Source of the DNA: Microbacterium limosum
Lineage (GTDB): Bacteria > Actinomycetota > Actinomycetes > Actinomycetales > Microbacteriaceae
Reading direction: 5' to 3'
Assembly: GCF_036324365.1 (NCBI RefSeq)
Contig: NZ_CP137080.1
Location: 62,001-126,000, forward strand
DNA: 64,000 bases
Shown: positions 19,738-48,420 of the stretch, piece after piece
How positions within the stretch are numbered: the stretch's first letter is position 1
How the letters are laid out: each line of letters opens with the position of its first letter
The notes under the pieces: model-generated
Told to the model about the DNA's origin: nothing
Database searches by the model: none
What the model saw: the letters and a program-made list of their open reading frames with translations, nothing else
Program-made: the position numbers and the translations under genes

Positions 19738-19806
19738 ACGCTAGCGCCGGGACGTTTCCCGAATGTTGCTGTGAGTAACATCCGGGAAACGCGGGGGCCC
19801 TAGCGT
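19738..19806. promoter_or_regulatory. Divergent uraD/allB promoters with inverted GlnR-like boxes
   Basis: Two -10 boxes TAGCGT face outward: minus strand 19738-19743 (6 nt before the uraD GTG) and plus strand 19801-19806 (7 nt before the allB ATG). Between them is the inverted repeat 19753-19791. Its right half reads GTAAC-N6-GAAAC (19775-19790) and its left half, on the minus strand, GCAAC-N6-GAAAC (19769-19754). Each GAAAC ends exactly 10 nt before its -10 box. The form fits GlnR boxes of actinobacteria; the regulator itself is inferred. Confidence 0.7.
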
Positions 19807-19813
19807 GGGGGCC

Positions 19814-21217
19814 ATGACCGCACTCCCCGACGCCCCGCGGGCGTTCGCCGCTCGCCGCGTCTGGATCGACGGTGTCTTCCGCCCGGCCCTCCTGCGCATC
19901 GAGGACGGGCGCATCGCTGCGATCGACCCCCTCGAGCCGGCTGCGGCCCTCCCCGACGGGTTCGACGTCGTCGCGCTGCCCGACGAGGCGGTGCTCCTGC
20001 CAGGACTGGTCGATTCGCACGTGCACCTCGACGAGCCCGGCCGCACCGAATGGGAGGGCTTCGAGACGGGGACCGCGGCGGCCGCCGCGGCAGGCATCAC
20101 GACGATCGTCGACATGCCGCTCAACAGCGATCCCGTCACGACGACCGTGGCGGCTCTCGCCGTCAAGCGAGAGGCGACGCGCGGCAAGCTCGCGGTCGAT
20201 CTGGCCTACTGGGGCGGCGCGGTGCCCGAGAATCTCGGCTCCCTCGCCGCGCTCGCCGCCGCCGGGGTAGTGGGGTTCAAGTGCTTCCTCTCGCCCTCGG
20301 GCATCGACGAGTTCGGCAACCTCGACGCCGCGCAGCTCGAGGCGGCGCTCGCGGAGATCGCGGCCTTCGACGGCCTGCTGATCGTGCACGCGGAGGACCC
20401 CGCGCAGCTGCACGGCGACGGTGCCCTCGGTCCGCAGTACGACACCTTCCTCGCGACCCGCCCGCCCGAGAGCGAGCGCGAGGCCATCCGGCGCGTGATC
20501 GACGCCGCGCGACGCACGGGAGCGAGAGCGCACGTCGTGCACGTCAGCGACGCCGGCTCGCTCGCCGACGTGCGCGCGGCGAAGGCGGAGGGCGTGCGCC
20601 TGAGCATCGAGACCTGTCCCCACTACCTCACCCTCGCCTCGGACGACGTGCCGGATGCCGCGCCCGAGTTCAAGTGCTGCCCCCCGATCCGGGACGCCGC
20701 CAACCAGGACCTGCTCTGGCAGGGCGTGGTCGATGGCACGATCGACGCGATCGTCAGCGATCACTCGCCCTCCACCGCCGAGATGAAGAACCAGGGCGGC
20801 GGGGACTTCGGGCTGGCGTGGGGCGGCATCTCGGGGCTGCAGACCGGGTTCGCGTCGGTGTGGACCGAGGCGAAGCGGCGCGGCATCCCGCTCGCGGCGC
20901 TCCTGCCGCTGTTCACGACGGGGCCCGCGAAGGTGGCGGGGCTCGCCGGGGCGGGGACGATCGCCGTCGGCGGCCCCGCCCACCTGGCGGTCTTCGCCCC
21001 CGAGGAGGGCTTCACGGTGGATGCCGCGGCCCTCGAATACCGAAACAAGATGTCGCCGTGGCACGGGCGCGCCCTCGTGGGGGTCACGGAGGCGACGTAT
21101 CTCGCGGGCCGGCGCGTCTTCGCCCGCGGTCGGGGCGTGCTGGCCCGCGGCGGGCGGGAGATCCTGAGCGCGGAAGCGGCCGTCGCCGCGACCGACGTCG
21201 ACGAGGAGGTCGTGTGA
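19814..21217 (+). CDS. allB: Allantoinase
   Basis: 467 residues, binuclear metal cyclic amidohydrolase that opens allantoin to allantoate. Metal ligands are in DSHVHLDEPG, the carboxylated Lys in GFKCFLSPSGIDEF, the later His in VHAED and VVHVSD, and Asp in IVSDHSPS. The pattern GRTEWEGF and the C-terminal RNKMSPW-GR are allantoinase rather than hydantoinase features. The start is ATG 19814 on a leaderless-type transcript. It heads an operon of six genes with 4-nt overlaps at most junctions. Confidence 0.95.
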   Translation: MTALPDAPRAFAARRVWIDGVFRPALLRIEDGRIAAIDPLEPAAALPDGFDVVALPDEAVLLPGLVDSHVHLDEPGRTEWEGFETGTAAAAAAGITTIVDMPLNSDPVTTTVAALAVKREATRGKLAVDLAYWGGAVPENLGSLAALAAAGVVGFKCFLSPSGIDEFGNLDAAQLEAALAEIAAFDGLLIVHAEDPAQLHGDGALGPQYDTFLATRPPESEREAIRRVIDAARRTGARAHVVHVSDAGSLADVRAAKAEGVRLSIETCPHYLTLASDDVPDAAPEFKCCPPIRDAANQDLLWQGVVDGTIDAIVSDHSPSTAEMKNQGGGDFGLAWGGISGLQTGFASVWTEAKRRGIPLAALLPLFTTGPAKVAGLAGAGTIAVGGPAHLAVFAPEEGFTVDAAALEYRNKMSPWHGRALVGVTEATYLAGRRVFARGRGVLARGGREILSAEAAVAATDVDEEVV

Positions 21218-22419
21218 GCATCACCATCCTGCAGCCCGGCACGGGGGAGGTCCCCGGCGACCACTACCTGCGCGCGTCCGCGGAGACCGTCCACTGGGGC
21301 CGCCTGCCCTGCGCGCGGGATGCCGCGGTGCTGGAGATCGCCGCGGGCGAGACCGTCACGATCGACACCGTGAGCCACGAGGGGATCCTCGAGGACCAGG
21401 GCAAGGATCCGCTGGCCTACTTCACCGGCAAGGGCGTGCCCGCGGCATCCGTCCTCTCCGACGCGATCGAGATCGCGCGGGAGCTCGCCCGGGACACGCT
21501 CGCCGACGGCCCGCACGTCGTGACGGGGCCGATCCGGGTGGCGGGGGCGATGCCCGGCGACCTTCTCAAGATCACGGTGGTGCGGCTGCAGCCGCGCGTG
21601 CCGTACGGCGTGATCTCGAACCGGCACGGCAAGGGAGCGCTCGTGGGGGAGCTGCCCCGCGGCGAGCACAACGTCAGCGTCTTCACGCCCGTCGAGGAAC
21701 GGGAGGGGCGCCTCGTCGGCGTGCTCCCGGTGACGGAGGGAGGCCCCGGCGTGGTTGAGTTCCCCCTCGCGCCGTTCCTCGGCACGATGGGCGTCGCCGT
21801 CGCGGGCGATCAGCGCCCGCACTCCGTGCCCCCCGGCGAGCACGGCGGCAACATCGACATCAACCTGCTGGTCGAGGGCAGCGTGCTGTACCTGCCCGTG
21901 CAGGTCGAGGGCGCGCTGGCGTACGTCGGCGACCCGCACTTCGCGCAGGGCGACGGCGAGGTCGCGCTCACGGCGCTCGAGGCATCCCTGCGCGCGACGC
22001 TGCGCTTCGAGGTCGTTCCGAGCGAGGAGGCGCTCGCCGAGTTCGGCGCGTTCACCGGCCCGCTGGTGCGCACCGACGAGTACCTCGTGCCGACGGGGCT
22101 CGACCCCGACCTCGGCGAGGCGATGCGCCGCTGCGTGCGGGCGGCGATCTCGCTCATCCGCGCCCGCTGGGGGCTCGACGAGCACCTCGCCTACGCGTAC
22201 CTGAGCGCCGCGACCGACTTCGACATCTCGCAGGTCGTCGACATCGTGTGCGGCGTGCACGCCCGCATCCGCGAGGCCGACTTCGCGGGCGTCGAGCGCA
22301 CGGGGCATCCGTCCGCCGACTCGCTGGGAACAGGAGATCGCGCGGGCACAGGAGAAACCCCGGCGAGCGCTCCTGTCTCCGGCGGATCGCCTGCTCCCGG
22401 GCGGGAGCACGCGCGATGA
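21214..22419 (+). CDS. Acetamidase/formamidase family protein
   Basis: 401 residues of the FmdA/AmdA family, which hydrolyse short amides. Characteristic segments are DTVSHEGI, VVTGPIRVAGAMPGDLLKI, PGEHGGNIDINLLVEGSVLYLPV and VGDPHFAQGDGEV. The GTG start overlaps the allB stop (GTGA). The last 30 or so residues are low-complexity and encoded by a palindromic repeat, so the natural C-terminus was probably shorter. In this operon it may hydrolyse a small amide arising from allantoate or oxalurate breakdown, possibly oxamate or formamide. That is inference from context. Confidence 0.9.
   Translation: MSITILQPGTGEVPGDHYLRASAETVHWGRLPCARDAAVLEIAAGETVTIDTVSHEGILEDQGKDPLAYFTGKGVPAASVLSDAIEIARELARDTLADGPHVVTGPIRVAGAMPGDLLKITVVRLQPRVPYGVISNRHGKGALVGELPRGEHNVSVFTPVEEREGRLVGVLPVTEGGPGVVEFPLAPFLGTMGVAVAGDQRPHSVPPGEHGGNIDINLLVEGSVLYLPVQVEGALAYVGDPHFAQGDGEVALTALEASLRATLRFEVVPSEEALAEFGAFTGPLVRTDEYLVPTGLDPDLGEAMRRCVRAAISLIRARWGLDEHLAYAYLSAATDFDISQVVDIVCGVHARIREADFAGVERTGHPSADSLGTGDRAGTGETPASAPVSGGSPAPGREHAR
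22327..22398. repeat. Imperfect inverted repeat within the 3' end of the amidase gene (family C)
   Basis: Left arm begins GGGAACAGGAGATC (22327) and right arm ends GATCGCCTGCTCCC (22398), with a second nested pair CACAGGAGA and CTCCTGTCTC. It codes for the final low-complexity tail of the acetamidase-like protein. The inner sequence CGCTCC-TGTC recalls family B arms. Confidence 0.5.
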
Positions 22420-24038
22420 CGGATGCCGCGGCCCGCGGCGCGGAGACGGTCCCGGCCGACCTGCTGCGGGCGTTCGAGGCCTACGAGCGGGCGATCATGG
22501 CGAACGACCTCGACGCGCTCGACGCGGCCTTCGCGCCCGGCGAGGGCACGATGCGCGGGGATGCCGCGGGCCTGCTCGTCGGCCACGACGCGATCAGCGC
22601 CTTCCGCGGCGTGCGTGGGGGAGTGCCGCCGCGATCGATCGAGCGGATCGAGCACCGCGAGCTCGCCCCGGATGTCGCGCTGCTCGTGTCGATCTCGCGG
22701 TACGCGGGCGGGGGCACCGGCCTGCAGACGCAGATCTGGCAGCGGATCGAGGGCCGGTGGCTCATCACCGCCGCGCACGTGACCCCGCGGGCCCAGGCGC
22801 TCGACCGGTCGGTGTGGCGCACCGTCGGCGACCCGCTCTTCCAGGGCGCGTGGGAGGGCCCGCTCGAGGGCCTGACGGTCGCCGTCAAGGACCTCTTCGC
22901 GATCAAGGGCTACCGCATCGGCGCCGGAAACCCCACCTATCTCGACTCCGCGCGCGCCGAGACGACCACCGCCGCGGCGGTCTCCGACCTGCTGCGCGCG
23001 GGGGCCTCCCTGCGGGGCATCGCGCGCACCGACGAGTTCGCCTACTCGGTCGCGGGCGACAACGCCCACTACGGCACGCCCCCCAACGGGGCGCTGCCGG
23101 GGGCCCTGCCCGGCGGCTCGTCGAGCGGCCCGGCGTCGGCCGTCGCCACGGGGCAGGCGCAGATCGGCCTCGCGACCGACACTGCCGGTTCCATCCGCGT
23201 CCCCGCGTCGTATCAGGGCCTGTGGGGCCTGCGCACGACCCACGGGCTCGTGCCTCGGCAGGGGCTGCTCCCCCTCGCGCAGACCTTCGACACGATCGGG
23301 TGGCTCACGCGCGACGGCGAGACGCTGCAGAAGGTCGTCGACTGGTGCCTCAGCTACGACGGCTCGGAGTCGACCGAGAGCGTCTTCGGGGAGTCGGGGC
23401 GCGACCTGCCGTGGAGCTTCGCCGTCCCCACCGAGGCGCGCGACTCGCTCGAGCCGCAGACGCGCGAGGCGTTCGACGCGTTCGTCGAGGCGCTGCGCGC
23501 CGGGCCCGACGCGCCCGAGGTGGCCGAGGCATCCCTCGGCGATCTCGACGAGTACCTCGCCGCGTTCCGCACGGTGCAGGGCGCGGAGGCATGGCGCAAC
23601 AACGGCGAGTGGCTGCGGGAGCATCCCGGCGCCGTCGGGGCGGCCGTGGCCGAGCGGTTCCGCATCGCCTCGGAGGTGACCGCCGACGCCGAGTCGGGCG
23701 CACGCACCGCGGTGGAGTCGCTCCGCGAGCGGATGCACGACGCGACCCGCGACACCGTCCTGATCATGCCGACCGTCCCCGGTCCCGCGCCGATGCGCAC
23801 GCACCGCGGCGAGCGCGTCGACGCGGTGCGCACGGCGACGCTGCGCATGACGACGCCCGCGGCGATCGGGGGCATGCCCGCGATCTCGATCCCGCTCCTG
23901 ACCGTGCCCTCGACGCTCGGCCCCGCTCCCGTGGGCGTCAGCCTCATCTCGCGCGCGGGCACCGATATCGCCCTCGTCCGCCTCGCGCGCCGCCTCGCGC
24001 GCGCGGCGGCCCCCCTCCCTCCGAAGGACCCCGCATGA
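22416..24038 (+). CDS. Fusion of DUF3225 (HpxZ/AtzH-like) and amidase (HpxY/AtzE-like)
   Basis: 540 residues, two parts. Residues about 15-128 form an NTF2-like domain (LLRAFEAYERAIMANDLDAL, LLVSISRYAGGGTGLQTQIW, GRWLITAAHVT) as in HpxZ/AtzH. The rest is an amidase-signature hydrolase with catalytic Lys in VAVKDLFAIKG, the Gly/Ser loop GGSSSGPASA and the nucleophile Ser in TDTAGSIRVPAS. In Klebsiella hpx clusters these are separate proteins HpxZ and HpxY encoded next to the oxamate amidohydrolase HpxW. The gene overlaps both neighbours by 4 nt and lies directly before pucG, so it probably acts on an oxalurate- or ureidoglycine-derived amide. No HpxX/AtzG-like small subunit is present. Confidence 0.85.
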   Translation: MTDAAARGAETVPADLLRAFEAYERAIMANDLDALDAAFAPGEGTMRGDAAGLLVGHDAISAFRGVRGGVPPRSIERIEHRELAPDVALLVSISRYAGGGTGLQTQIWQRIEGRWLITAAHVTPRAQALDRSVWRTVGDPLFQGAWEGPLEGLTVAVKDLFAIKGYRIGAGNPTYLDSARAETTTAAAVSDLLRAGASLRGIARTDEFAYSVAGDNAHYGTPPNGALPGALPGGSSSGPASAVATGQAQIGLATDTAGSIRVPASYQGLWGLRTTHGLVPRQGLLPLAQTFDTIGWLTRDGETLQKVVDWCLSYDGSESTESVFGESGRDLPWSFAVPTEARDSLEPQTREAFDAFVEALRAGPDAPEVAEASLGDLDEYLAAFRTVQGAEAWRNNGEWLREHPGAVGAAVAERFRIASEVTADAESGARTAVESLRERMHDATRDTVLIMPTVPGPAPMRTHRGERVDAVRTATLRMTTPAAIGGMPAISIPLLTVPSTLGPAPVGVSLISRAGTDIALVRLARRLARAAAPLPPKDPA

Positions 24039-25264
24039 CCCTCCTCCCCGGCCCCATCGACCCGCCCACCCGCCTGCTCATGGGCCCCGGGCCGATCTCG
24101 GCCTACCCGAGCGTGCTCACCGCGATGTCGGCGCAGCTGGTGGGCCAGTACGACCCGTTCATGACCGGGGCGATGGCCGAGACGCAGGAGCTGTACCGCC
24201 GGATCTGGGCGACCCGGAACGACGCGACCCTGCTCATCGACGGCACCTCGCGCGCCGGCATCGAGGCGGCGATGATCTCGCTCGTCCGCCCCGGCGACCG
24301 TGTGCTCGTGCCCGTCTTCGGCCGCTTCGGGCATCTTCTGGCCGAGATCGCCGAGCGCGCGATGGCGGAGGTGCACACGATCGAGGTGCCGTGGGGGCAG
24401 GTCTTCACCCCCGCCGCGATCGAAGAGGCGATCGTGCGCGTCAGGCCTCACCTGCTGGGTCTCGTGCAGGGCGACACGTCGACGACGATGCTGCAGCCGC
24501 TCGACGAGATCGGCGCGATCTGCGACCGGCACGGCGTGCTGTTCTACTCCGATGCCACCGCGTCGCTCGGCGGCAACCCCTTCGAGGCGGATGCCTGGGG
24601 CCTGGATGCCGCGACGGCCGGGCTCCAGAAGTGCCTCGGCGGGCCCTCGGGCTCGGCCCCGATCACGCTCTCGGAGCGCGCCGTGGAGATCATCCGGTCG
24701 CGCAAGAAGATCGAGGCGGGCATCCGCGAGCCGGGCGACGAGGACGCGCCCGACTTCGTGCGCTCCAACTACTTCGACCTCGGCATGATCCTCGACTACT
24801 GGGGCCCGCGTCGCCTGAACCACCACACCGAGGCCACGTCGATGCTCTACGGCGCGCGCGAGTGCGCCCGCGTGCTGCTGGGCGAGGGCCGCGACGCCGT
24901 CATCGAGCGGCACGTGCTGCACGGCGAGGCGATGCTCGCCGGCGTGCGGGGGCTGGGACTGGTCGTCTTCGGCGATGTCGCGCACAAGATGTCGAACGTC
25001 GTCGCCGTCGAGATCCCGGAGGGGGTCGCGGGGGATGCCGCGCGACAGGCCATGCTCGAGGACTTCGGCATCGAGATCGGCACCTCGTTCGGGCCCCTCC
25101 ACGGCCGCGTCTGGCGCATCGGCACGATGGGCTACAACGCCCGCAAGGACGCCGTGCTGACGACCCTCGCGGCGCTCGAGCAGGTGCTGCGCCGCTTCGG
25201 CGCGAAGGTCCCCGCCGGGGGCGGCGTCGAGGCGGCGCTCGACGTCTACGCGGGGGCGCGATGA
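24035..25264 (+). CDS. pucG: (S)-ureidoglycine--glyoxylate aminotransferase (PucG-like)
   Basis: 409 residues, PLP enzyme of the alanine-glyoxylate/serine-pyruvate aminotransferase fold. It moves the amino group of S-ureidoglycine to glyoxylate, giving oxalurate and glycine. The PLP Lys is in GLQKCLGGPSG; the start LLMGPGPISAYP and GTSRAGIEAAM bind cofactor. VGQYDPFM and LNHHTEAT match PucG and carry the polar substrate-binding residues that separate it from ordinary AGAT. The neighbouring allC supplies ureidoglycine, which supports the call. Confidence 0.88.
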   Translation: MTLLPGPIDPPTRLLMGPGPISAYPSVLTAMSAQLVGQYDPFMTGAMAETQELYRRIWATRNDATLLIDGTSRAGIEAAMISLVRPGDRVLVPVFGRFGHLLAEIAERAMAEVHTIEVPWGQVFTPAAIEEAIVRVRPHLLGLVQGDTSTTMLQPLDEIGAICDRHGVLFYSDATASLGGNPFEADAWGLDAATAGLQKCLGGPSGSAPITLSERAVEIIRSRKKIEAGIREPGDEDAPDFVRSNYFDLGMILDYWGPRRLNHHTEATSMLYGARECARVLLGEGRDAVIERHVLHGEAMLAGVRGLGLVVFGDVAHKMSNVVAVEIPEGVAGDAARQAMLEDFGIEIGTSFGPLHGRVWRIGTMGYNARKDAVLTTLAALEQVLRRFGAKVPAGGGVEAALDVYAGAR

Positions 25265-26565
25265 TCCGCACCCTGCTCGAGGACCTCACCCCCGACCGCG
25301 TCGCGGCCGCCGCGCGGCGCGTCATGGCGCGGTGCGACGAGCTCGCACGCGTCACGGCGACGCCCGGCGGGATCGAGCGGGTCTACCTCTCCACCGAGCA
25401 CGCGCGGGTGAACCGCCTCGCGGCGGAGTGGATGCGCGAGGTCGGCATGTCCACACGGCAGGACGCGGCCGGAAACCAGATCGGCCGGCTCGCGGCATCC
25501 GACCGCGACGCGCCCGCGCTCATGCTCGGCTCGCACCTGGACACCGTGCCCGACGCGGGACGCTTCGACGGCATCGTCGGCGTGCTGATGGCGCTCGAGG
25601 TCGTCCGGCTGCTGCGCGTTCCGGCGCCCGTCGGGGAAGGCAGCCTGTCGCCCCTCCCGTTCGCGCTCGAGGTCATCGCCTTCTCCGACGAGGAGGGCAC
25701 GCGCTTCGGCAAGGCCCTGCTGGGCTCGTCGGCCGTCGCCGGCACGTGGGACGAGGACTGGTGGCAGCTGACGGATGCCGACGGCATCACGCTGCGTCAG
25801 GCGTTCCTGGAGTTCGGGCTCGACCCCGGTCGCGTGGGCGAGGCCGCACGCCGGCCCGAGCAGCTCGTGGGGTACCTGGAGGCCCACATCGAGCAGGGGC
25901 CCGAGCTCGACCGTCGGGGGGAGTCGCTCGCCGTCGTCTCGTCCATCGCGAGCGCCCGACGCTTCCAGCTCGTCGTCGAGGGCGAGGCCCGGCACGCCGG
26001 TGGCACCCCCTACGACATGCGCCGCGACGCCCTGCTCGGGGCGAGCGAGGCCGCACTCGCGGTGGAGCGGATCTGCTCGGGCGAGCACCACGTCATCGGC
26101 ACGGTCGGCCAGCTCGAGGCCTTCCCCGGCGCGGTCAACATCGTGCCGGGCGAGGCGCGCTTCAGCCTCGATCTGCGCGGCGAGTTCGACGAGTCCCGCG
26201 ACCGCGTGTGGAGCGCGATCTCGCGCGACCTCGACGCGGTCATGGGCCGGCGCGGACTGCGCTGGCGCGCGCGCGAGGTGCACAACGCCCCCGCCGTGAT
26301 GTGCGCCCCGCTGCTGCAGGACGTCGTGCGAGAAGGCATCCGCGGCGCCCTGCCGGAGGCGCCCGGCGACCCCGCGACGCTGTTCAGCCCCGCGGGGCAC
26401 GACGGCATGTCGATGGGCGCGATCACCGGCGTCGGGATGCTCTTCCTGCGCAATCCCGACGGCATCAGCCACCACCCCGACGAGGCGGTGAGCGCCGGGG
26501 ACGTGGCCCTCGGCATCCGCGCCCTCGCCGAGTCCGTGCTCCACCTGGGCGCCGAGCCCCGCTGA
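25261..26565 (+). CDS. allC: Allantoate amidohydrolase
   Basis: 434 residues, M20-family dimetal hydrolase of the hydantoinase/carbamoylase group. Releases ammonia and CO2 from allantoate to give S-ureidoglycine. Metal ligands appear in LGSHLDTVPDAGRFDGIVGV, FSDEEGTRFGKA (catalytic Glu) and EAHIEQGPELDRRG, and the final His in GISHHPDE. The dimerisation domain contains GEARHAGGTPYDMRRDA. Homologues include ureidoglycolate hydrolases and carbamoylases; the position between pucG and allB favours allantoate. The ATG overlaps the pucG stop. Confidence 0.9.
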   Translation: MIRTLLEDLTPDRVAAAARRVMARCDELARVTATPGGIERVYLSTEHARVNRLAAEWMREVGMSTRQDAAGNQIGRLAASDRDAPALMLGSHLDTVPDAGRFDGIVGVLMALEVVRLLRVPAPVGEGSLSPLPFALEVIAFSDEEGTRFGKALLGSSAVAGTWDEDWWQLTDADGITLRQAFLEFGLDPGRVGEAARRPEQLVGYLEAHIEQGPELDRRGESLAVVSSIASARRFQLVVEGEARHAGGTPYDMRRDALLGASEAALAVERICSGEHHVIGTVGQLEAFPGAVNIVPGEARFSLDLRGEFDESRDRVWSAISRDLDAVMGRRGLRWRAREVHNAPAVMCAPLLQDVVREGIRGALPEAPGDPATLFSPAGHDGMSMGAITGVGMLFLRNPDGISHHPDEAVSAGDVALGIRALAESVLHLGAEPR

Positions 26566-26589
26566 GAACACCTCACCCGTTAGGAACCC

Positions 26590-27963
26590 ATGTCTCTCCT
26601 CGTCATCAACGCACGCCTCATCACGATCCCGACCGGCAGCGACGACCCCGGCTACATCGAGCGCGGGTGGATGCGCGTCGAGGACGGCCGCATCGCCGGG
26701 ATCGGTGCGGGAGACCCGGGAGATGCGACCGCCGACGAGGTGCTCGACGTCGACGGCGCGTTCGTCGCCCCCGGCTTCGTCTCGAGCCACAGCCACCTGT
26801 TCACGAGCGGACTGCGCGGCCTCGGCGTCGCCGACACCCTCTACGGCTGGTGCGACTCGATGCTCGGCATGACCGCCCACGCGACGCCGGAGGACGTCTA
26901 CTGGTCGACGCTGCACGGCGCCCTCGACTTCCTCGGCAACGGCGTCACGACCGCCTACAACTTCACCGATCCGCAGCAGGCGTGGGAATCGATGGTCGAC
27001 GGCAAGCGCGTCGGCGACGCGCCCCTGCGCGGCACCGAGTACCACACGCGTCAGGCCGACGGATGCCTGGATTCCGGCATCCGCTTCGTCGACTCGATCG
27101 GCATGGACGTCACCGCGGGGACGGATGACGAGATCTTCGCGCGCTTCGAGGCATCCGTCGCCCACACCCGCGCCATGGACCCGGACTTCGCGCTCGGCGC
27201 CTCGATCATGGGCCAGGTGCAGTGGTCGCCCCGGCCCGAGGCGGCCGAGATCGAGGTCGAGGCGATGCGGCGGTTCGGCGTGACCAACCAGGCTCACTTC
27301 CTCGAGTCGCCAGAGGCCGTGCCGCTGCAGCAGTCGAAGTTCGCGCTGTACCGGGATGCCGGGGCCCTCGGCGAGGGCATGATGTTCGGCCACTTCATCC
27401 AGACGACCCCCGAGATCATCGAACAGGCCGCCGCGGGCGGCGCCTCGATGTCCTGGCAGCCCGCCTCGAACGGGCGCCTCGCCTCCGGTACGGCGCTCGT
27501 GCCCGAGATGATCGCGATGGGCATGAAGGTCGGCATCGGGCTCGACGACCAGGCCTGCACCGACGTCTCCGACCCGTGGCAGAACATGCGCATGGGCATC
27601 GCGATGCAGCGGGCGCGAACGAAGGACCCGCTGTCGATGATGCCCGAGCTCGTGCTGCGTCTGCACACGCTGGGCTCGGCCGAGATCATGGGCGTCGCCG
27701 ACCGCGTCGGCAGCCTCGAGGTGGGCAAGTTCGCCGACTTCGTCGTGGTCGATCCCCGCCGCCCCGACGTGGGCCCCCTGTGGCACCCCGTGCGCAGCTA
27801 CGTGCTGTCGATGAGCCTGCGGAACCTGCTCGGCGTCTACGTCGGCGGCGAGCTCGTCTCGCGGGCGGGGGAGTCCACGAATCCGCTGGCCGCCGAGGCA
27901 TCCGCCCGCATCCACGCCGACCTGCCCGCGGTCGCCGAGCGCCGGGGGCGCCACCCGCACTGA
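26590..27963 (+). CDS. Amidohydrolase of the TRZ/ATZ aminohydrolase type
   Basis: 457 residues, metal-dependent TIM-barrel hydrolase. The first metal site is SSHSHLF (near 58-64); later ligands are TNQAHFLES, FGHFIQTTPE and GIGLDDQACTD. Family members deaminate or dechlorinate s-triazines, guanine, 8-oxoguanine and related rings. The HFLE motif where guanine deaminases have H-x-x-E fits an aminohydrolase. It ends the allB operon after a 24-nt gap with an AGGA ribosome site. Its ring substrate is not determined; a base feeding xanthine or urate is plausible. Confidence 0.85.
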   Translation: MSLLVINARLITIPTGSDDPGYIERGWMRVEDGRIAGIGAGDPGDATADEVLDVDGAFVAPGFVSSHSHLFTSGLRGLGVADTLYGWCDSMLGMTAHATPEDVYWSTLHGALDFLGNGVTTAYNFTDPQQAWESMVDGKRVGDAPLRGTEYHTRQADGCLDSGIRFVDSIGMDVTAGTDDEIFARFEASVAHTRAMDPDFALGASIMGQVQWSPRPEAAEIEVEAMRRFGVTNQAHFLESPEAVPLQQSKFALYRDAGALGEGMMFGHFIQTTPEIIEQAAAGGASMSWQPASNGRLASGTALVPEMIAMGMKVGIGLDDQACTDVSDPWQNMRMGIAMQRARTKDPLSMMPELVLRLHTLGSAEIMGVADRVGSLEVGKFADFVVVDPRRPDVGPLWHPVRSYVLSMSLRNLLGVYVGGELVSRAGESTNPLAAEASARIHADLPAVAERRGRHPH

Positions 27964-28011: not shown

Positions 28012-28065
28012 GTAACGGCGCCGAAACATCCGGCCAGTGTTCGTGAAATCTACATCCCATACCGT
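28012..28065 (+). promoter_or_regulatory. GlnR-like box and promoter of the ABC-transporter/deaminase operon
   Basis: GTAAC (28012-28016)-N6-GAAAC (28023-28027)-N6-CCAGT (28034-28038)-N6-GAAAT (28045-28049), then 10 nt and the -10 box TACCGT (28060-28065). The first pair is a perfect GTnAC-N6-GAAAC; the second is degenerate but in register. The 10-nt distance to the -10 box equals that at both uraD and allB. Confidence 0.7.
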
Positions 28066-29210: not shown

Positions 29211-29238
29211 GCTCCCCACCTCGATCGAGAGATTCACT

Positions 29239-38368: not shown

Positions 38369-38431
38369 CGCTCCCCTGTCGCGATTCGACGCCGTGCCCG
38401 ACGACGGCGAGCGGTTCGTGACAGGGGAGCG
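38369..38431. repeat. Intergenic inverted repeat, family B copy 2
   Basis: Arms CGCTCCCCTGTCGC (38369-38382) and its inverse (38418-38431) match at 13 of 14. The inner sequences (CGAC-GC after the left arm, GAGCGGTTC before the right) resemble copy 1 at 9625-9693. It lies inside an operon, just after the monooxygenase stop. Confidence 0.7.
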
Positions 38432-38435
38432 GCGG

Positions 38436-41329: not shown

Positions 41330-41360
41330 GCGGTACCTCGGTTCGGCCGGCGGGGAGCGG

Positions 41361-42782
41361 TCAGAGCGTAGGGCGCTCGTGTGACGGCGCGTCGTCGCTC
41401 GTGTGTCCGCGGTGGAACAGTCCGCTCGGGTCCTCCTGCTCATCGAGCCAGGCCGAGCGGCGGGCGAAGAGGTCGGGCACCAGCGCACGCACGCGGTCGA
41501 TCAGCTCCGCGAGGTCGGCGTTCACGAGCCGGCCGTCCTTGACCACGACCCGCCCATCGACCATCGTCAGGTCCACGTCCGAGCCCCGCACTGCGTGCAC
41601 GAGGTTGTGGTGGATATTGGCGTAGCCGCCCGAGGGGAGCAGGGGCGTCATCCGCGGCGTATCGGTGCGCACGGCGACGAGGTCGGCCTTGTGCCCGGGC
41701 AGCAGCGCACCCAGCTCGCCCCCGCGTCCGATGGCCGCCGCCCCGCCGCGGGTGGCCATGTGCAGGACATCCCACGAGTCCATGGCCGCGGCATCCATCG
41801 TGCGCAGCTTGCCCAGCAGGGAGGCGACCTTCATCTCCTCGAACATGTCGAGGTTGTTGTTCTCCTTCTCGCCGTCGGTGCCAAGACCCACGTTCACGCC
41901 CGCCGCGAGCATCTCGGCCACCGGCGCCATGCCGCTCGCGAGCTTCATGTTCGAGACGGGGTTGTGCGAGACCCCCACGCCGCGGGCTGCGATGAGGTCC
42001 ACCTCGGCATGATCGAGCCACACCGCGTGAGCGATCATCGCGCGGGGGGCGTCGAAGAAGCCGAGCTTGTCGAGGGCGAACATCGGCCGGGTGCCGTAGC
42101 GCCCGACGAAGTCGGCCACCTCGATCTCGGACTCGCTGCAGTGCGTGTAGAGGCCGGTGTCGTAGGAGCGGGCCAGTGCCACGGCGCGCCGCTGGCCCGC
42201 CTCGTCGGCGTAGAACGGGTGCTCGAGTCCGACCCACGGCATGATCCGGCCGTTCGCCGCCCCGGTCCACTCCTGCAGCATCCGCTCGTTGTCATCGAGG
42301 GTGTCGAAGTAGTCGAAGTCGGGGTGCTCCCCCACGTAGTTCACGCTCACGAGTCGGTTGCCCAGAGCGGATGCCGCGCGGGCCGCGCCGTCCATGAAAC
42401 GCCACATGTCGACGACCGTCGTGGTCCCCGACAGAAGCCCCTCGGCGTAGCAGAGCCAGGCGGCCGCCTCCGCCTCATCGGGTCGCAGCACCCGGTGCAT
42501 CGGATCGATGTGCAGGCGCAGCCACTCCCACACCGGAAGGTGCTCGGCGGTTCCGCGCAGCATGCCGGAGTGGTGGTGCGCGTTGACGAGGCCCGGCATG
42601 AGGACGTGATCGGGCAGATCGATGTGCTCGGCGTCGGGGTTCTCCGCCGCGAGTGCGGTCGCGTCGCCGACGGCCCTTATCGTGTCGCCGGTCACGAGGA
42701 CCGCGGCATCCGTCAGGACGGTGCGGGCGTCGTCCATCGGGACGACGACAGGGGCGGTCAGCAGGAGGGGGGTGGTGCTCAT
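41361..42782 (-). CDS. TRZ/ATZ family amidohydrolase (aminohydrolase/chlorohydrolase type)
   Basis: 473 residues. Full metal and catalytic set: NAHHHSGMLR, THCSESE (H-x-x-E catalytic Glu), AHAVWLDHAE, SHNPVSNMKLASG and GLGTDGEKENNN. This is the AtzA/TrzN/SAH-deaminase branch, which removes amino or halide groups from nitrogen rings. It follows the orphan binding protein across a strong hairpin, suggesting that the imported compound is first deaminated by this enzyme. The substrate is unknown. Confidence 0.9.
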   Translation of the reverse strand: MSTTPLLLTAPVVVPMDDARTVLTDAAVLVTGDTIRAVGDATALAAENPDAEHIDLPDHVLMPGLVNAHHHSGMLRGTAEHLPVWEWLRLHIDPMHRVLRPDEAEAAAWLCYAEGLLSGTTTVVDMWRFMDGAARAASALGNRLVSVNYVGEHPDFDYFDTLDDNERMLQEWTGAANGRIMPWVGLEHPFYADEAGQRRAVALARSYDTGLYTHCSESEIEVADFVGRYGTRPMFALDKLGFFDAPRAMIAHAVWLDHAEVDLIAARGVGVSHNPVSNMKLASGMAPVAEMLAAGVNVGLGTDGEKENNNLDMFEEMKVASLLGKLRTMDAAAMDSWDVLHMATRGGAAAIGRGGELGALLPGHKADLVAVRTDTPRMTPLLPSGGYANIHHNLVHAVRGSDVDLTMVDGRVVVKDGRLVNADLAELIDRVRALVPDLFARRSAWLDEQEDPSGLFHRGHTSDDAPSHERPTL

Positions 42783-42804
42783 GGGGGCTCTCTCAAGAAG
42801 TGGG

Positions 42805-42842
42805 GTCTGTGGCGGGGCGGCGGGGGTCGCCCCGCCACAGAC
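42805..42842 (-). terminator. Perfect 15-bp hairpin after the orphan binding-protein gene
   Basis: GTCTGTGGCGGGGCG (42805-42819) pairs without mismatch with 42828-42842 across an 8-nt loop, starting 3 nt after the binding-protein stop. No T-tract follows. Such hairpins after binding-protein genes stabilise that mRNA and reduce expression of distal genes, as known for malE. Confidence 0.65.
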
Positions 42843-42845
42843 GTC

Positions 42846-43913
42846 TCAGCGTGCGTCGACGAGTTCGGGGTTCTCCTCGTAGACCTCGTCGAGCAGGCTG
42901 AGGTCGAAGATGTCCTCGGCCGACACCTCGAATCCGGATCTCGCGAGGCTCGCGATCGTCTGCTGCTGCAGGTCCTCGGAGATCGTGAACAGCCCGTTTT
43001 CGATCGTCTCCTCCGAGACGACGAGGAGTTCGGCCTGCGCGGTCGCGCTCGCGATCGAAGTCTCGAGGGACAGGCCCAGGTCGGCGCCGTACTCCTCGAC
43101 GGCGAGCTCCGCGCCGATCGCGGGGTCGGCCACGGCGTCCCGCCAGCCGCGGATCTCGGCGACGAGGAACGCCTTCAGCCGCTCGCGATCGGAGGCGATC
43201 GTGTCGTCGGTGGCGGCGACGACGTGGCCGACGAAGGGCAGCCCGTTGTCGGCGAAGAGCAGGTCGGTCACTGCGATCCCCTGCACCTCGAGGGTGACGG
43301 ACTGGCTCGTGACGAACGCGATCAGGCCGTCGACCTCGCCCGTGACAAGGGGGGCGGGATCGTACTGCACCGGCACGATCTCGATCTCGCTCGCGTCGAT
43401 GCCGTTAGCGGAGAGGAAGGCGTCGAACACCGGGCGGTTGGAGTCCTGCACGCCGATCTTCTTGCCGATCATCTCCCCGGGCGTCGTGATGTTCGCGCCG
43501 TCGGTGAGGGAGGCGATCGTGAAGGGGTTCTTCTGGAACGTCGCGCCGACGACCTTGAGGGGCGCGCCCTCGTTGGCGACCGCGGCGCCGACCGAGAGAG
43601 CGTCGGTGAACGACACCTCGGCGGTGCCCGAGAGCAGCTCGGCGATGCCGCTCGAGGGTCCGGGGATGAGGTTGACCGACGAGAAACCGGCGTCCTCGTA
43701 GTAGCCCTCGGAATGGGCGATCAGCTCGCCCGACCACTCTTCGTTGAGGATCCAGCTCAGCTGAACGGACAGATCTCCGAGGTCGTCGCCGGCGACGGGC
43801 GAGCTATCGGTGGATGCGGCGCCGCCGGCGCACGCGGCGAGTCCGACGGAAGCGGCGATCAGCGCCGCGCCGACGGCGAGGCCGCGGGCGCGGCGCGGGA
43901 GGGCGAAGGACAT
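42846..43913 (-). CDS. Orphan ABC substrate-binding lipoprotein (paralogue of 28140-29210)
   Basis: 355 residues. Lipobox LAAC with Cys28, then [29 protein letters not shown] and [20 protein letters not shown], each closely matching the binding protein at 28140. No ATPase or permease accompanies it, so it probably feeds the transporter 12-15 kb away with a second ligand. It is first in the operon with the aminohydrolase and oxidative genes, and has its own nitrogen-type promoter. The ribosome site is a weak AGAAAGAG. Confidence 0.92.
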   Translation of the reverse strand: MSFALPRRARGLAVGAALIAASVGLAACAGGAASTDSSPVAGDDLGDLSVQLSWILNEEWSGELIAHSEGYYEDAGFSSVNLIPGPSSGIAELLSGTAEVSFTDALSVGAAVANEGAPLKVVGATFQKNPFTIASLTDGANITTPGEMIGKKIGVQDSNRPVFDAFLSANGIDASEIEIVPVQYDPAPLVTGEVDGLIAFVTSQSVTLEVQGIAVTDLLFADNGLPFVGHVVAATDDTIASDRERLKAFLVAEIRGWRDAVADPAIGAELAVEEYGADLGLSLETSIASATAQAELLVVSEETIENGLFTISEDLQQQTIASLARSGFEVSAEDIFDLSLLDEVYEENPELVDAR

Positions 43914-43941: not shown

Positions 43942-43995
43942 ATAGTAGAGAGCAATCATTGATTGCACGTGGCAATCGTGTTTCCGCCGTGTTTC
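43942..43995 (-). promoter_or_regulatory. GlnR-like box array and -10 of the orphan-SBP operon
   Basis: On the minus strand: GAAAC (43995-43991)-N6-GAAAC (43984-43980)-N6-GCCAC (43973-43969)-N6-TCAAT (43962-43958), then 10 nt and TACTAT (43947-43942). The outer pair is strong and the inner pair weak, but all four 5-mers keep the 11-nt register and the same 10-nt distance to the -10 box as at 28012-28065. Confidence 0.55.
43952..43966. promoter_or_regulatory. Palindromic operator in the orphan-SBP promoter
   Basis: GCAATCA-T-TGATTGC is a perfect inverted repeat between the putative -35 and -10 regions; a further half-site GCAATC lies at 43972-43977. Its position implies repression, and the adjacent XRE-cupin gene is the natural candidate. 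Confidence 0.6.
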
Positions 43996-44008: not shown

Positions 44009-44060
44009 CGCGGCTCAGGCGTCGGTCGCGTACGCGCGGCTCAGGCGTCGGTCGCGTACG
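44009..44060. repeat. 26-bp perfect tandem duplication at the end of the XRE-cupin gene
   Basis: Two identical 26-nt units (44009-44034 and 44035-44060). The second holds the last codons and TGA of the XRE gene; the first repeats them, including an extra TGA, just beyond. The protein is unchanged. It appears to be a recent slippage event. Confidence 0.8.
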
Positions 44061-44643
44061 CGAGGATGATGCGGATGGGGGACTCGCCGCGTGCGGTCCA
44101 GCGGTTGCGCAGCGCCCCGGGATAGGTCACGGCATCGCCCGGGCCGAGCTCCCAGGAGCCGCGTCCTTCGATGTCGACCGTGATCTCCCCGTCGACGACG
44201 TAGACGGTGACCTCGCCGTCCGATTCGTACCAGTCGCCCATGTACTGGCCGGGCTCGACCCGGTACTCCTGCATCGAGGCGGCGCCCGAGTGGACGACGC
44301 GCGTCGTGGCGGCGTTCTCGACCTCCGCGATCGGCACCCAGTGCGCCTGCTCGCGGCGGGAGACGTGGATCGGGTCGACCTCCGGCTCGGCGGGCAGGAG
44401 CGCGGACGGTGAGATGCCCAGCACCTTCGCGATCCGGTAGAGCGTGATGAGCGAGGGCATCGCGCCGCCGCTCTCGATCTGGCTCAGGAACGGCTGGCTG
44501 ATCTCCGCCGCCGACGCCAGGGCGCGCATCGAGAGCTTCTTGCGCGTGCGCGCCTCGCGGATCGCCCGCCCGAGCGACGCGCCGATGAGGGCGTCGGGCG
44601 GCGCGGACGGCCGCGCGGCGTCGGAAGGGGAGCGAGCGGGCAC
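44041..44643 (-). CDS. XRE family regulator with C-terminal cupin domain
   Basis: 200 residues. Helix-turn-helix about 24-80 (IREARTRKKLSMRALASAAE, SQPFLSQIESGGAMPSLITL) and cupin about 120-195 (VEPGQYMGDWYESDGEVTVYV, ELGPGDAVTYPGALRNRW). Start GTG 44643, 6 nt after a -10 box. It lies between the xanthine dehydrogenase genes and the orphan-SBP operon and probably binds the GCAATCA palindrome in the latter's promoter. It is distinct from the XRE-cupin protein at 32943. Confidence 0.92.
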   Translation of the reverse strand: MPARSPSDAARPSAPPDALIGASLGRAIREARTRKKLSMRALASAAEISQPFLSQIESGGAMPSLITLYRIAKVLGISPSALLPAEPEVDPIHVSRREQAHWVPIAEVENAATTRVVHSGAASMQEYRVEPGQYMGDWYESDGEVTVYVVDGEITVDIEGRGSWELGPGDAVTYPGALRNRWTARGESPIRIILAYATDA

Positions 44644-44655
44644 CGCACCACCCTA
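44644..44655 (-). promoter_or_regulatory. Leaderless promoter of the XRE-cupin gene
   Basis: TAGGGT (44650-44655, minus strand), 6 nt, GTG at 44643. No ribosome site is present. Confidence 0.55.
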
Positions 44656-44733
44656 GCGAGCACCCGGACCCGAGGCGGCGGCGATGCCCGCCGCCGGGCG
44701 CGCCCACCGCCGGAGGGTGGGGTCCGATCCGAC

Positions 44734-47508
44734 TCAGCGGGCCTGCGCCAGGCGCCACACCCGGTCTCGCGAGAACGGCTGCTCGAACGGCCGCGTGCCG
44801 AGGGCGCGGGCGATCGCGTTGCCGATCGCCGGTGCCACGGGGTTGTAGGGCGACTCGCTCATCGACTTGGCGCCGAACGGGCCGAGATCGTCGTTCGTGT
44901 CGGCGAAGTGGATCTCCGTCTCCGGGATGTCGGCCATCTGCGGAACCCGGTACAGGCGGAACTGCCCGTTGACGACGGCCCCGGCATCCGTCATGACCTC
45001 TTCGTACAGCGCGCTGCCCACGCCCTGTGCCACGCCGCCCTCGATCTGACCGCGGCATTGCGCGGGGTTCATCACGAACCCGGCATCCGCCGCGTGCACC
45101 TGCTGCAGGATGCGCACCGACCCCGTCTCGGGATCGACCGCAAGCCGCACGGCGTGCACGTTGAAGGCGAGGGAGCGGTGCTCGCCGAGCTCGCTGCCCA
45201 CCGCCGTCACGCCGCCGTGGGCGAGCTCGTCGGGGGATGCCGCGCCGACGAGCTCGGCGAAGCCCACCGTCCCCGACGGGGTCGCCACCCCGTCTGGAGT
45301 GAGGCGGCACTGCGCCGGCGGCACGGCTGTCACGCGAGCCGCGATCGCGACGAGGCGTTCGCGCAGCGCCAGGCAGGCGGCGTAGAGGGCCTTGCCGGCC
45401 ACGGTCGTGCCCGCCGAGGCGAACGCGCCGGTGTCGTGCTCGACCTCGTCGGTGTCGGCGTGGGCGAGGGTCAGCCGGGCGGAGTCCACACCGAAGACGG
45501 ATGCGGCGATCTGCCGCTGCACGGTCGTGGTGCCGTTGCCGAACTCGGCCGTTCCCGTGCGCAGGGCGTAGGTCCCGTCGGATCGGAGCGTCGCGCTCGT
45601 GTGCGAGATGTGGCCCCGGGGCGCCATCGTCGCGATCATCGAGGCCGCCATTCCCTCGCCGACGAGCCAGCCGTCGGGGGCCGTGGCGCCGTTGCCGCGC
45701 CGCAGGCCGTCCTGCGCGAGGTCGAGGCACTGATCGAGCCCGTAGCTGCCCCAGATCACCTCCTCCTCGATGACGCCGTCGGCGGTCCGCAGCCGGTCGG
45801 CCTCGGTCACGGCGTTGATGCGGCGCAGGTCGAACGGGTCGATGCCCAGACGCTCGGCGAGCATGTCCATCGCCGATTCCACCCCGAGCATGACCTGGCC
45901 GAGCCCGTATCCGCGGAACGCGCCGGAGGGCACGTTGTTGGTGTACACGGCCTCGGCGTCCACGCGCGAGACGGGCGTGCGGTAGATCGTCAGCGACTCG
46001 GCGCAGCCGTGGAACATGACGCCGATCGCGTGGTTGCCGTACGCGCCCGTGTCGCTGAGCACGTCGAGCTTGACGGCGGTGAGCCGGCCCGCGGCATCCG
46101 CCCCCAGTGTCACGCCGACCCGCATCGGGTGACGCACCGAGGCGCGCACGAACTGATCGGCGCGCGAGAACTCGTAGCCGACGGGCCGGCCGGTGCGCAG
46201 CACCGCGAGCGCGACGAGGTCTTCGGTGAAGATCTCCTGCTTGCCGCCGAACCCGCCGCCCACCCGAGGCGCGTAGACGCGCACCTTCTCCCGCGGGAAG
46301 TCGAGGATGCGGCACAGCTCGTCCCGGGTGAGGAAGGGCACCTGCGTGCTGGAGCGGATGACGAGGCGTCCGTCGTCGTCGAGCCACCCGACCGAGCCGT
46401 GGGTCTCGAGCTGCGCGTGGGAGACCCGCGATGTCTGCCACGTGCCCGAGACGGTGACCGCGCTCGCCGCGAGCGCCGCGTCGATGTCGCCGCCGTAGCC
46501 CGCGTGCAGGGCCGCGACCACGTTGCGGGAGGCTTCCGCGACGCGATCCTCCGGCGTGCGGTCGGGGTGCAGCAGCGGAGCGCCCGGTGCGCGTGCCTCG
46601 TCCGCGTCGAACACCGCGGGCAGAACCTCGTAGTCGATCCGGATGAGCCGGCAGGCCGCATCCGCGGCGGCGGCGGTCTCGGCGACGACGGCCGCGACCC
46701 GCTGACCGATGTGCCGCACGACGTCGTCGAGCATCCGGGTGTCGTCGGGGTCGTCGGTGCGATGCTCGTGGCGTCCGGTGGAGTAGCGCGTACGCGGGGC
46801 GTCCTCGTGGGTGAAGACGGCGACGACGCCCGGCACGGCGAGAGCGGCGGCCGTGTCGATCGAGCGGATGCGCGCGTGGGCGTGCGGCGATCCGACGACG
46901 CGCAGCACGAGGGTGCCCGGAGGCACCTCGTCGAACGTGTAGGGCTCGAGGCCCTGCACCACCCGGCGCGCGGCCTCGGGGGACACCGATGCGCCGACGC
47001 CAGAGCCCGTGACGGCGGGCGGGTGCGCGCACGCGTGCTCGGGGGCGCAGCCCGCGGCATCCGCGCGGCGACCGGTCTCCCGCACGGCGCCCATGATGGC
47101 CTCGCGGATCGGGCGGTAGCCGGTGCAGCGGCAGAGGCTGCCCTTCATGCGGCGGTCGAGGTCGGGCAGGTCGTCGGCGCCCAGCGTCGATGCCGTGACG
47201 CTCATCCCCGGCGTGCAGAAGCCGCACTGGAAGCCGAAGCTCTCGATGAGGGCGTCCTGCACCGGGTGCAGTTCGCCTTCCGGTGCCAGGCCCGCGGCGG
47301 TCGTGACGTGCCTGCCCTCCACTCGGGGGGCCGGGATGATGCAGGAGTGCACGGGCTCGCCGTCCAGCAGCACGGCGCAGGCGCCGCAGTCGCCCGAGTC
47401 GCACCCCTTCTTCACCTGGGTGCGCCCCGTCTCCCGCAGAAGCGTGCGCAGGCACTGGCCCGGTCGCGGCTGCGCCTCGACGGCCTCGCCGTCCACTTCG
47501 AATCTCAT
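44734..47508 (-). CDS. Xanthine dehydrogenase, fused 2Fe-2S and molybdopterin subunit
   Basis: 924 residues. Residues 1-160 carry two 2Fe-2S clusters: Cys36, 41, 44 and 56 (KKGCDSGDCGACAV), then GFQCGFCTPGM and SLCRCTGYRP. A linker leads to the Mo-bis-binding domain (about 190-920) with VGGGFGGKQEIF, GAFRGYGLGQ and the catalytic Glu in FGAKSMSESPYNP. It oxidises hypoxanthine/xanthine to urate, or a related heterocycle. The order 2Fe-2S then Mo in one chain with a separate FAD subunit recalls Mop-type aldehyde oxidoreductase plus an added FAD protein. Context favours xanthine. The ATG overlaps the FAD-subunit stop. Confidence 0.9.
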   Translation of the reverse strand: MRFEVDGEAVEAQPRPGQCLRTLLRETGRTQVKKGCDSGDCGACAVLLDGEPVHSCIIPAPRVEGRHVTTAAGLAPEGELHPVQDALIESFGFQCGFCTPGMSVTASTLGADDLPDLDRRMKGSLCRCTGYRPIREAIMGAVRETGRRADAAGCAPEHACAHPPAVTGSGVGASVSPEAARRVVQGLEPYTFDEVPPGTLVLRVVGSPHAHARIRSIDTAAALAVPGVVAVFTHEDAPRTRYSTGRHEHRTDDPDDTRMLDDVVRHIGQRVAAVVAETAAAADAACRLIRIDYEVLPAVFDADEARAPGAPLLHPDRTPEDRVAEASRNVVAALHAGYGGDIDAALAASAVTVSGTWQTSRVSHAQLETHGSVGWLDDDGRLVIRSSTQVPFLTRDELCRILDFPREKVRVYAPRVGGGFGGKQEIFTEDLVALAVLRTGRPVGYEFSRADQFVRASVRHPMRVGVTLGADAAGRLTAVKLDVLSDTGAYGNHAIGVMFHGCAESLTIYRTPVSRVDAEAVYTNNVPSGAFRGYGLGQVMLGVESAMDMLAERLGIDPFDLRRINAVTEADRLRTADGVIEEEVIWGSYGLDQCLDLAQDGLRRGNGATAPDGWLVGEGMAASMIATMAPRGHISHTSATLRSDGTYALRTGTAEFGNGTTTVQRQIAASVFGVDSARLTLAHADTDEVEHDTGAFASAGTTVAGKALYAACLALRERLVAIAARVTAVPPAQCRLTPDGVATPSGTVGFAELVGAASPDELAHGGVTAVGSELGEHRSLAFNVHAVRLAVDPETGSVRILQQVHAADAGFVMNPAQCRGQIEGGVAQGVGSALYEEVMTDAGAVVNGQFRLYRVPQMADIPETEIHFADTNDDLGPFGAKSMSESPYNPVAPAIGNAIARALGTRPFEQPFSRDRVWRLAQAR

Positions 47509-48344
47509 GCGCGGACCTCCCCGTCGGCGAGCTCGCGTCGCGCCCGTTCGGCGAGCACGATCGCCACCCCTCGGCGCCAGTCGGCGCTGCCGAGGGCGTC
47601 GGTGTAGTACCCGGATGCCGCCGCGATGTCGTCGGCGAGCTCCTGCGCGGACGGGATGCCGCGGTAGCGGAACACCGTGGGCCGCTGCGTCGCCGCGGTG
47701 ATCCCGAACACCGTCCCGCCGTCGGCGTCGAGTCGGCCGGTCGTCACGGCTCCCGAGCGGCCCAGTTCGGCGAGGGCGATCTTGTGCAGGACGAGGCGGC
47801 CCCGCAGCGTCGCCGCCGGGACGTCGATGCGGCGCAGCACCTCTCCGGGCGCGAGGCCGTTCTCGCCGTTGCCCGTGACGAGGTCTGCGACGAGGGTCCG
47901 GCGTTCTCCGCCGTCCGGCGACCAGATCAGCGCGGTGGCGTCGAGGCCCGCCGCGAGCGAGACCATCGCGCCGGCCGCGAAGGAGCGGCAGATGTTGCCG
48001 CCCACCGTCGCGGTGTTCCAGATCTTGAACGACGCCAGCAGCGCGTTCGCCGCGTCGGGGAAGGCCGCGGTGGCGGCCCACTCGGCGGGCGGCGTCACGT
48101 GATGGCGCCCCTGCGCGAAGGCGACGAGCGTCGCGATCGTGCACGTCGCGCCGATCTGCAGGCCCTCGGGGGTGACGACGAGGTCCTCCCAGCCCATCGT
48201 GGTCAGGTCCACGAGACCGGTGACCCGGGGCTGCGGCTCGCCGTAGAGCCAGGTGCCGCCGCCGAGGAGGGTCTCGCCCGCCGCCAGCGCGAGGTCCTCC
48301 CGCCTCCGCGCGCTGCGGAAGGACGTCACGGAGGTGAGGTCCAC
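47505..48344 (-). CDS. Xanthine dehydrogenase FAD-binding subunit
   Basis: 279 residues, CO-dehydrogenase flavoprotein type. FAD contacts are LLGGGTWLYGE near residue 27 and TVGGNICRSFAAGAM near 113. It passes electrons from the 2Fe-2S clusters to NAD+. Start GTG 48344 (VDLTSVTSF) with GGGAG upstream. It heads the two-gene xdh operon. XdhC and a MocA-like protein needed to mature the Mo cofactor lie 1.1 kb further on. Confidence 0.9.
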   Translation of the reverse strand: MDLTSVTSFRSARRREDLALAAGETLLGGGTWLYGEPQPRVTGLVDLTTMGWEDLVVTPEGLQIGATCTIATLVAFAQGRHHVTPPAEWAATAAFPDAANALLASFKIWNTATVGGNICRSFAAGAMVSLAAGLDATALIWSPDGGERRTLVADLVTGNGENGLAPGEVLRRIDVPAATLRGRLVLHKIALAELGRSGAVTTGRLDADGGTVFGITAATQRPTVFRYRGIPSAQELADDIAAASGYYTDALGSADWRRGVAIVLAERARRELADGEVRA

Positions 48345-48404
48345 GATTTCTCCCGAGCGGTCGAGTTGTTGATGAGGCGAACACCCCGAGTGAAGCAGGC
48401 GTGC

Positions 48405-48420
48405 ATTTCGCCCGTGTTTC
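48405..48420 (-). promoter_or_regulatory. Weak GlnR-like box upstream of the xdh operon
   Basis: GAAAC (48420-48416)-N6-GAAAT (48409-48405) on the minus strand. Ten nt further is TTCACT (48394-48389), one mismatch from TAnnnT. The layout mirrors the other island promoters but with weaker matches. Confidence 0.35.

Follow-up and report, generated by a model that had tools for sequence, protein, structure and literature searches.

The region considered here (the window) is a stretch of 64,000 nucleotides (nt) of Microbacterium limosum, positions 62,001-126,000 of a one-contig genome of 2.79 Mb, with a GC content of 72% in the window, and it holds a predicted purine-degradation island. A codon-usage gene call places 29 genes between positions 17,667 and 50,568 (33 kb) in six same-strand units with many 4-nt overlaps or short gaps, and each of these predicted units is headed by one of six sites at which short boxes of the kind bound by GlnR stand at a set distance from a minus-10 hexamer (Table 1). 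The published form of the GlnR box is gTnAc-n6-GaAAc-n6-GtnAC-n6-GAAAc (PMC10704036), and GTnAC-N6-GAAAC, cited as the actinobacterial form in an initial annotation of this DNA, agrees with it. Since every unit of the 33-kb island begins at a promoter of this type, we infer from the sequence that the 5-mers are very probably GlnR boxes and that the island is one nitrogen-responsive regulon, with GlnR binding, activation and the response to nitrogen all being predictions. That units and sites number six each also agrees with the proposal of the initial annotation that the whole island is a single regulon.

Table 1. Predicted transcription units of the island and the promoter elements that head them (positions in the window; scores from the foreign glnA matrix; gaps in nt between box and minus-10).
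Feature	Positions	Strand	Remarks
Unit 1: uraD, transthyretin-like 5-hydroxyisourate (HIU) hydrolase, flavin adenine dinucleotide (FAD)-dependent urate hydroxylase HpxO	17667..19731	-	
Unit 2: allB, FmdA/AmdA family, AtzH-amidase, class-V aminotransferase, allantoate amidohydrolase, amidohydrolase/deaminase	19814..27963	+	
Unit 3: NMT1-type substrate-binding protein (SBP), ATP-binding cassette (ABC) ATPase, two permeases, three adenosine-deaminase family genes, XRE-cupin regulator	28140..35654	+	
Unit 4: second NMT1-type SBP, amidohydrolase, aldehyde dehydrogenase, NtaA/DmoA-type monooxygenase, two thiamine pyrophosphate (TPP)-enzyme pieces, GMC oxidoreductase	35659..43913	-	
Unit 5: FAD subunit and molybdenum/iron-sulfur subunit of xanthine dehydrogenase-type enzyme, XRE-cupin regulator	44041..48344	-	
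Unit 6: xdhC, nucleoside-phosphorylase family	48583..50568	-	
GlnR a-b box GCAAC-N6-GAAAC, uraD-HIU hydrolase-hpxO unit	19754..19769	-	score 21.5, gap 10
Minus-10 TAGCGT of uraD	19738..19743	-	6 nt before predicted GTG start at 19731, leaderless-type
GlnR a-b box GTAAC-N6-GAAAC, allB unit	19775..19790	+	score 28.7, gap 10
Minus-10 TAGCGT of allB	19801..19806	+	7 nt before ATG at 19814
Four-box GlnR site GTAAC-N6-GAAAC-N6-CCAGT-N6-GAAAT, SBP-ABC-deaminase unit	28012..28049	+	score 28.7; gap 32 from first pair, 10 from last box
Minus-10 TACCGT of ABC unit	28060..28065	+	
GlnR site GAAAC-N6-GAAAC-N6-GCCAC-N6-TCAAT, second SBP unit	43958..43995	-	11-nt register; score 27.3, gap 32 from first pair
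Minus-10 TACTAT of second SBP unit	43942..43947	-	N10 from last box
GlnR box GAAAC-N6-GAAAT of xdh unit	48405..48420	-	score 19.4; N10, then weak minus-10 TTCACT at 48394-48389
GlnR box GTAGC-N6-GTAAC of xdhC-phosphorylase unit	50591..50606	-	score 18.5, gap 10; absent from the initial annotation
Minus-10 TAGCGT of xdhC	50575..50580	-	6 nt before ATG at 50568

Six promoters in one register

The initial annotation had located boxes at uraD, allB, the ABC unit, the second SBP and xdh, each with a 10-nt gap to the minus-10, and all five positions and the gap were correct when the sequence was read again; its description of the xdh promoter as a weak version also holds, given the TTCACT hexamer and the score there. 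The exact GTnAC-N6-GAAAC form occurs at the allB and ABC promoters, with at least one substitution at uraD, the second SBP, xdh and xdhC. At the ABC promoter an exact GTAAC-N6-GAAAC (28012-28027) lies 22 nt upstream of the degenerate half that had been cited, which makes this a four-box site, and at the second SBP site the lower two 5-mers (GCCAC and TCAAT) are degenerate. The second SBP gene itself had been called an orphan, but it is the first of a predicted seven-gene unit. The start codons that follow TAGCGT by 6-7 nt at uraD, allB and xdhC suggest that these three messages are leaderless.

The foreign matrix was made from glnA promoters in 28 genomes of the family, the own genome excluded, by pooling both box pairs and adding the three fixed letters (T, A, T) of the minus-10. 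It was run over both strands of the window (about 128,000 positions) for an a-b pair followed by TAnnnT at a gap of 10, 21 or 32 nt, with a cut-off of at least 18; a gap of 21 or 32 would imply one or two additional boxes, often degenerate, ahead of the minus-10. The six best positions were the five promoters noted initially and that of xdhC, followed by a second register of the SBP site (13.5) and by the next separate site in the window (12.0), with no further in-register site of 18 or more on either strand. When a gap of 10 alone was allowed, the five best were allB, uraD, xdh, xdhC and the first pair of the ABC site. Against the six window positions at or above the cut-off, dinucleotide-preserving shuffles of the window (n = 200) gave a mean of 0.03 and none reached six, nor did any shuffle equal the window counts at any of five thresholds; gene structure lies outside this shuffle model and is partly covered by the reversed-sequence controls given below. 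With the register displaced by -5 to +5 nt, just 0-2 positions scored 18 or more. By box score alone, with training on the own genome, five window positions scored at least 13, compared with a shuffle mean of 1.45 and a maximum of 6 in 20 shuffles; this excess is modest, so the case depends on the boxes in combination with their fixed distance from the minus-10. The view that the constant spacing is hard to explain by chance was thus borne out with a matrix taken from other genomes.

Conservation among relatives

The same geometry is found at glnA. All 120 genomes searched matched GlnA, and among the best 30 loci (own included) 29 carry GTAAC-N6-GAAAC-N6-GNNAY-N6-GNNAY followed by N10-TANNNT, all with a gap of 32 from the first pair; the thirtieth, L214, stands at a contig end with just 685 bases upstream and was misread by the fixed offset. 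The spacing is thereby established without recourse to the window, at a classical target of GlnR.

For the island genes, 30 loci of the ABC-unit SBP and 30 allB loci from an even draw of the family (own locus included in each set) were counted at a score of at least 11 with a matrix trained on the own genome, unlike the foreign glnA matrix, and with the same cut-off inside the gene as control. A site lies upstream of the ABC-unit SBP in 25 of 30 loci, as against 5 of 30 inside the gene, and several of these sites have four boxes at the same 10-nt distance. Loci at contig ends are misread by the fixed offset, and L166, scored as a miss in this count, carries a site in the whole-locus scan of both strands. 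A search with the second SBP gave largely the same loci, and the counts for the ABC-unit SBP do not separate the two.

A wider view came from named loci around allB, the best 80 of at least 576 (846 kb; near-identical records may be absent), 48 of which are Streptomyces by record title. The window AllB is closest, among the matches listed, to that of Microbacteriaceae bacterium L041 (69%), the next being mostly from Microbacterium and Curtobacterium. The foreign matrix found 39 promoters of at least 18 in 22 of the 80 loci and none in the reversed control, although the loci share descent and the counts are not of independent events. By tblastn, 26 of the 39 precede orthologues of island genes (allB 12, uraD 8, hpxO 2, the xdh FAD subunit 2, deaminase 1 and FmdA 1), four are labelled M20 and nine have no match to window proteins. 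The M20 labels are unsafe, the one checked (L025) being a class-V aminotransferase; the nine consist of L030, which precedes a purine/allantoin permease, L058, where the script found no gene, and seven that are permease-like by eye only. In 12 of the 39, by a crude start call, the first long-frame start falls 6 or 7 nt past the minus-10. The 48 Streptomyces loci gave no match of 18 or more, a result that covers only the surroundings of allB and a matrix that was trained on Microbacteriaceae.

The register could also be read from the boxes alone. Across three sets of relatives, boxes of at least 16 are followed by TANNNT at 10, 21 or 32 nt in 48 of 61 cases, with five off register within 50 nt and nine with none. 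The named loci contribute 32 boxes (28 in register, one off register within 50 nt, three with none), the 29 foreign SBP loci 21 boxes (16, 4 and 2, one box being counted twice) and the 29 foreign allB loci of the family draw eight (four, none and four), and at the 47 remaining gaps the mean count per gap is 0.02 in the named, 0.13 in the SBP and 0.00 in the allB set.

A separate observation concerns the gap-21 GlnR promoters at L030, L031, L032, L036, L042 and L097, which share a TTAA-plus-CATARCTT-like element over the minus-10; this is perhaps the operator of another local regulator.

Nitrogen genes elsewhere and the GlnR protein

Over the whole genome the exact GTnAC-N6-GAAAC has 14 matches, compared with one in the reversed control, GTAAC-N6-GAAAY has seven compared with none, and the four-box pattern with up to three mismatches has 12 compared with one, a single repeated sequence accounting for three of the 12. 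Half of the 14 exact matches lie at glnA, amtB, an ABC operon behind an XRE-cupin gene (L011), a second ABC operon (L012), a dioxygenase gene (L014) and the two window sites, and a minus-10-like hexamer stands 10 nt past the last box at glnA, L011, L012 and L014. The other seven (L003, L006-L010 and L013) are without explanation. At L003 (1501-1532) an exact GTTAC-N6-GAAAC is followed by CAGGGT at a gap of 10 and by an ATG 6 nt beyond, with a score of 19.3.

A glnR gene, whose presence the initial annotation had made a check on its proposal, was found. The L015 protein (near 2141558) aligns over residues 1-214 of 233 with PDB 8hih_O at 262 bits and shares with it an identical TVDVHVRRLRAKLG stretch; it also matches 8hig_A at 250 bits, and 4o1h, whose entry title is 'Transcription regulator GlnR'. 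We take 8hih to be a structure from the GlnR-RNA polymerase work described in PMC10704036.

Several observations weigh against a single GlnR regulon. Within the island, the minus-10 of the xdh promoter is weak and the a-box of the xdhC promoter is degenerate. Elsewhere, the expectation of the initial annotation that the motif would occur at nitrogen genes held for glnA and amtB and for the excess over the reversed control, with some weak points: amtB has a box and no good minus-10 at 10, 21 or 32, and of two nirB candidates (by Pfam) the first scores 14.6 at a gap of 21 and the second 7.6, both below 18, the latter with GAAAC-N10-TAGCGT 8 nt before the longest-frame start and an upstream GTAAC one base off register. 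No urease, and hence no ureA promoter to compare, was found in the genome. The comparison of orthologous promoters proposed initially had a similarly divided outcome, favourable at the SBP and before the 26 named orthologues of island genes but not at allB, where a site of at least 11 stands upstream in only six of the 30 loci drawn from the family, the own locus among them, and inside the gene in none of the 30, so that control of allB is not family-wide; promoters before the xdh FAD subunit occur in just two of the 80 named loci. Finally, the Trans_reg_C domain has nine matches in the genome, and related OmpR-type proteins could bind the same words.

Alternative readings

Foremost among such proteins is MtrA, which is encoded here (L016; NF040689, 384.6 bits against a cut-off of 300). 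According to PMC12323332, MtrA recognises GlnR sites, with the consensus GTAACC-N5-GTAACC, and the xdhC site, GTAGC-N6-GTAAC, is MtrA-like. That MtrA acts at the island's boxes is nevertheless unlikely: exact GTnAC-N6-GTnAC is absent from the window (degenerate MtrA sites were not scanned for), and the b-box of the best pair is GAAAC or GAAAT in five of the six sites, as in glnA. By analogy with Streptomyces (PMC12323332), MtrA may compete with GlnR.

A second protein, the GlnR-related winged-helix protein L021 (1438-2331, minus strand), has a recognition stretch, TIDVHVRRLRAKLG, nearly identical to that of GlnR and 39% identity over 133 residues, and it might read the boxes instead. Its likeness to GlnR is limited to the C-terminal part, however, and identical boxes stand at glnA, a classical GlnR target (PMC10704036), which makes a role for L021 in place of GlnR very improbable.

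Marginally less probable again is that the uraD and allB boxes form one palindromic operator for a local repressor. The two a-b pairs do make an inverted repeat with a 5-nt centre, and divergent uraD and allB sites also occur in L024, L035 and L027, but there the centre measures 23, 35 and 149 nt respectively, and neither the uraD site of L032 nor the allB site of L041 has a mirror site of 18 or more within 300 nt. The minus-10 register is moreover maintained on each side, and the remaining island sites are direct repeats. With mirror spacing ranging from 5 to 149 nt among relatives, and the mirror sometimes absent nearby, this candidate was rejected.

Chance matches in GC-rich sequence can be dismissed as an account of the boxes, for although the box score by itself is enriched only modestly, the registered sites were matched in 0 of 200 shuffles and in none of the 846 kb of reversed control.

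Gene content of the island

The transport genes of the island comprise two NMT1-type binding proteins and one ABC transporter. The molybdenum subunit of unit 5 scores 492 bits against the NCBIfam model XdhA, below its cut-off of 780, so its substrate rests on context. The units also contain larger gaps that could hold additional promoters: the TPP-enzyme pieces are preceded by one of 106 nt, the phosphorylase gene by one of 99, the XRE-cupin gene 44041-44643 by one of 90 and the first adenosine-deaminase gene by one of 65. The TPP enzyme is apparently split (37218-38329) into an N-terminal gene (PF02776) and a C-terminal gene (PF02775), and an XRE-cupin gene stands amid the three adenosine-deaminase family genes of unit 3 (31899-35654).

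The XRE-cupin regulators of units 3 and 5 may add control by substrate. In unit 5 a 26-nt tandem duplication (44009-44060) runs across the point where the XRE-cupin gene 44041-44643 has its stop codon. At the second SBP promoter, the final two GlnR boxes are overlapped by the sole TTG-N7-CAA palindrome of the window (43963-43975), and similar palindromes lie over the minus-10 of two GlnR-boxed ABC operons (L011, 1531-1543; L012, 1473-1485). These are possibly operators of XRE-cupin regulators, and the palindrome is present in just 5 of 30 promoters of SBP orthologues.

Predicted mechanism and its meaning

Under nitrogen limitation GlnR would bind these promoters head to tail, one protomer to each 11-nt box, an arrangement akin to the four GlnR DNA-binding domains set head to tail on a promoter that PMC10704036 describes. 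The last box would end 10 nt upstream of the minus-10, and with the minus-10 placed at -12 to -7 the last pair would extend from about -38 to -23 and occupy the place of the minus-35, so that GlnR most likely recruits RNA polymerase instead of the sigma -35 contacts. The six promoters would then drive the uptake of purines and their breakdown via xanthine, urate and allantoin towards ammonium, and the island would probably be switched on as a whole in nitrogen shortage.

Promoters of the PhoB type offer a parallel, with an OmpR-family activator whose boxes, direct repeats of 11 nt set immediately before the minus-10, replace the minus-35, although they differ from the island promoters in regulator, box and signal. 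The GlnR regulon of S. coelicolor is alike in the a-b-a-b form of its boxes, in boxes at glnA and amtB and in the presence of GlnR, and differs in that here a purine-degradation island is covered. Closer in content is M. smegmatis, where the targets bound by GlnR include a putative allantoicase gene as well as purine/allantoin permeases (PMC3662644). Its regulon is known from 53 genome-wide binding sites with the consensus AC/T-n9-AC, whereas the present one is a contiguous 29-gene island with a strict minus-10 register. The glnR mutant of that species survived more poorly on uric acid and allantoin and had higher activity on xanthine in one assay (PMC6277429). No report on GlnR regulation in Microbacteriaceae was found in the open-licence literature, as judged by titles and the beginnings of abstracts. 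The island is thus a newly predicted and well-supported GlnR regulon, of a type of system already known.

From six short promoters the regulation of 29 genes is predicted, and by a simple rule, in which the last box lies 10 nt before the minus-10 and more boxes are added in 11-nt steps, with no match in 846 kb of reversed control. More tentatively, GlnR might obey a strict grammar in this part of the actinobacteria, with boxes 10+11n nt from the minus-10 and often a leaderless start 6-7 nt further on, and might in this lineage be the master switch of the whole path from purines to ammonium, a combined proposal that we hold with some reserve. For M. tuberculosis, PMC4950008 describes no obvious pattern that relates where GlnR binds, where transcription starts and whether a gene is activated or repressed, and the Microbacteriaceae provide a set of promoters on which a rule for boxes and start sites can be tested.

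In Streptomyces, control of the purine pathway is assigned to dedicated purine regulators. The promoters described here suggest that control of purine breakdown has shifted between regulators within the actinobacteria.

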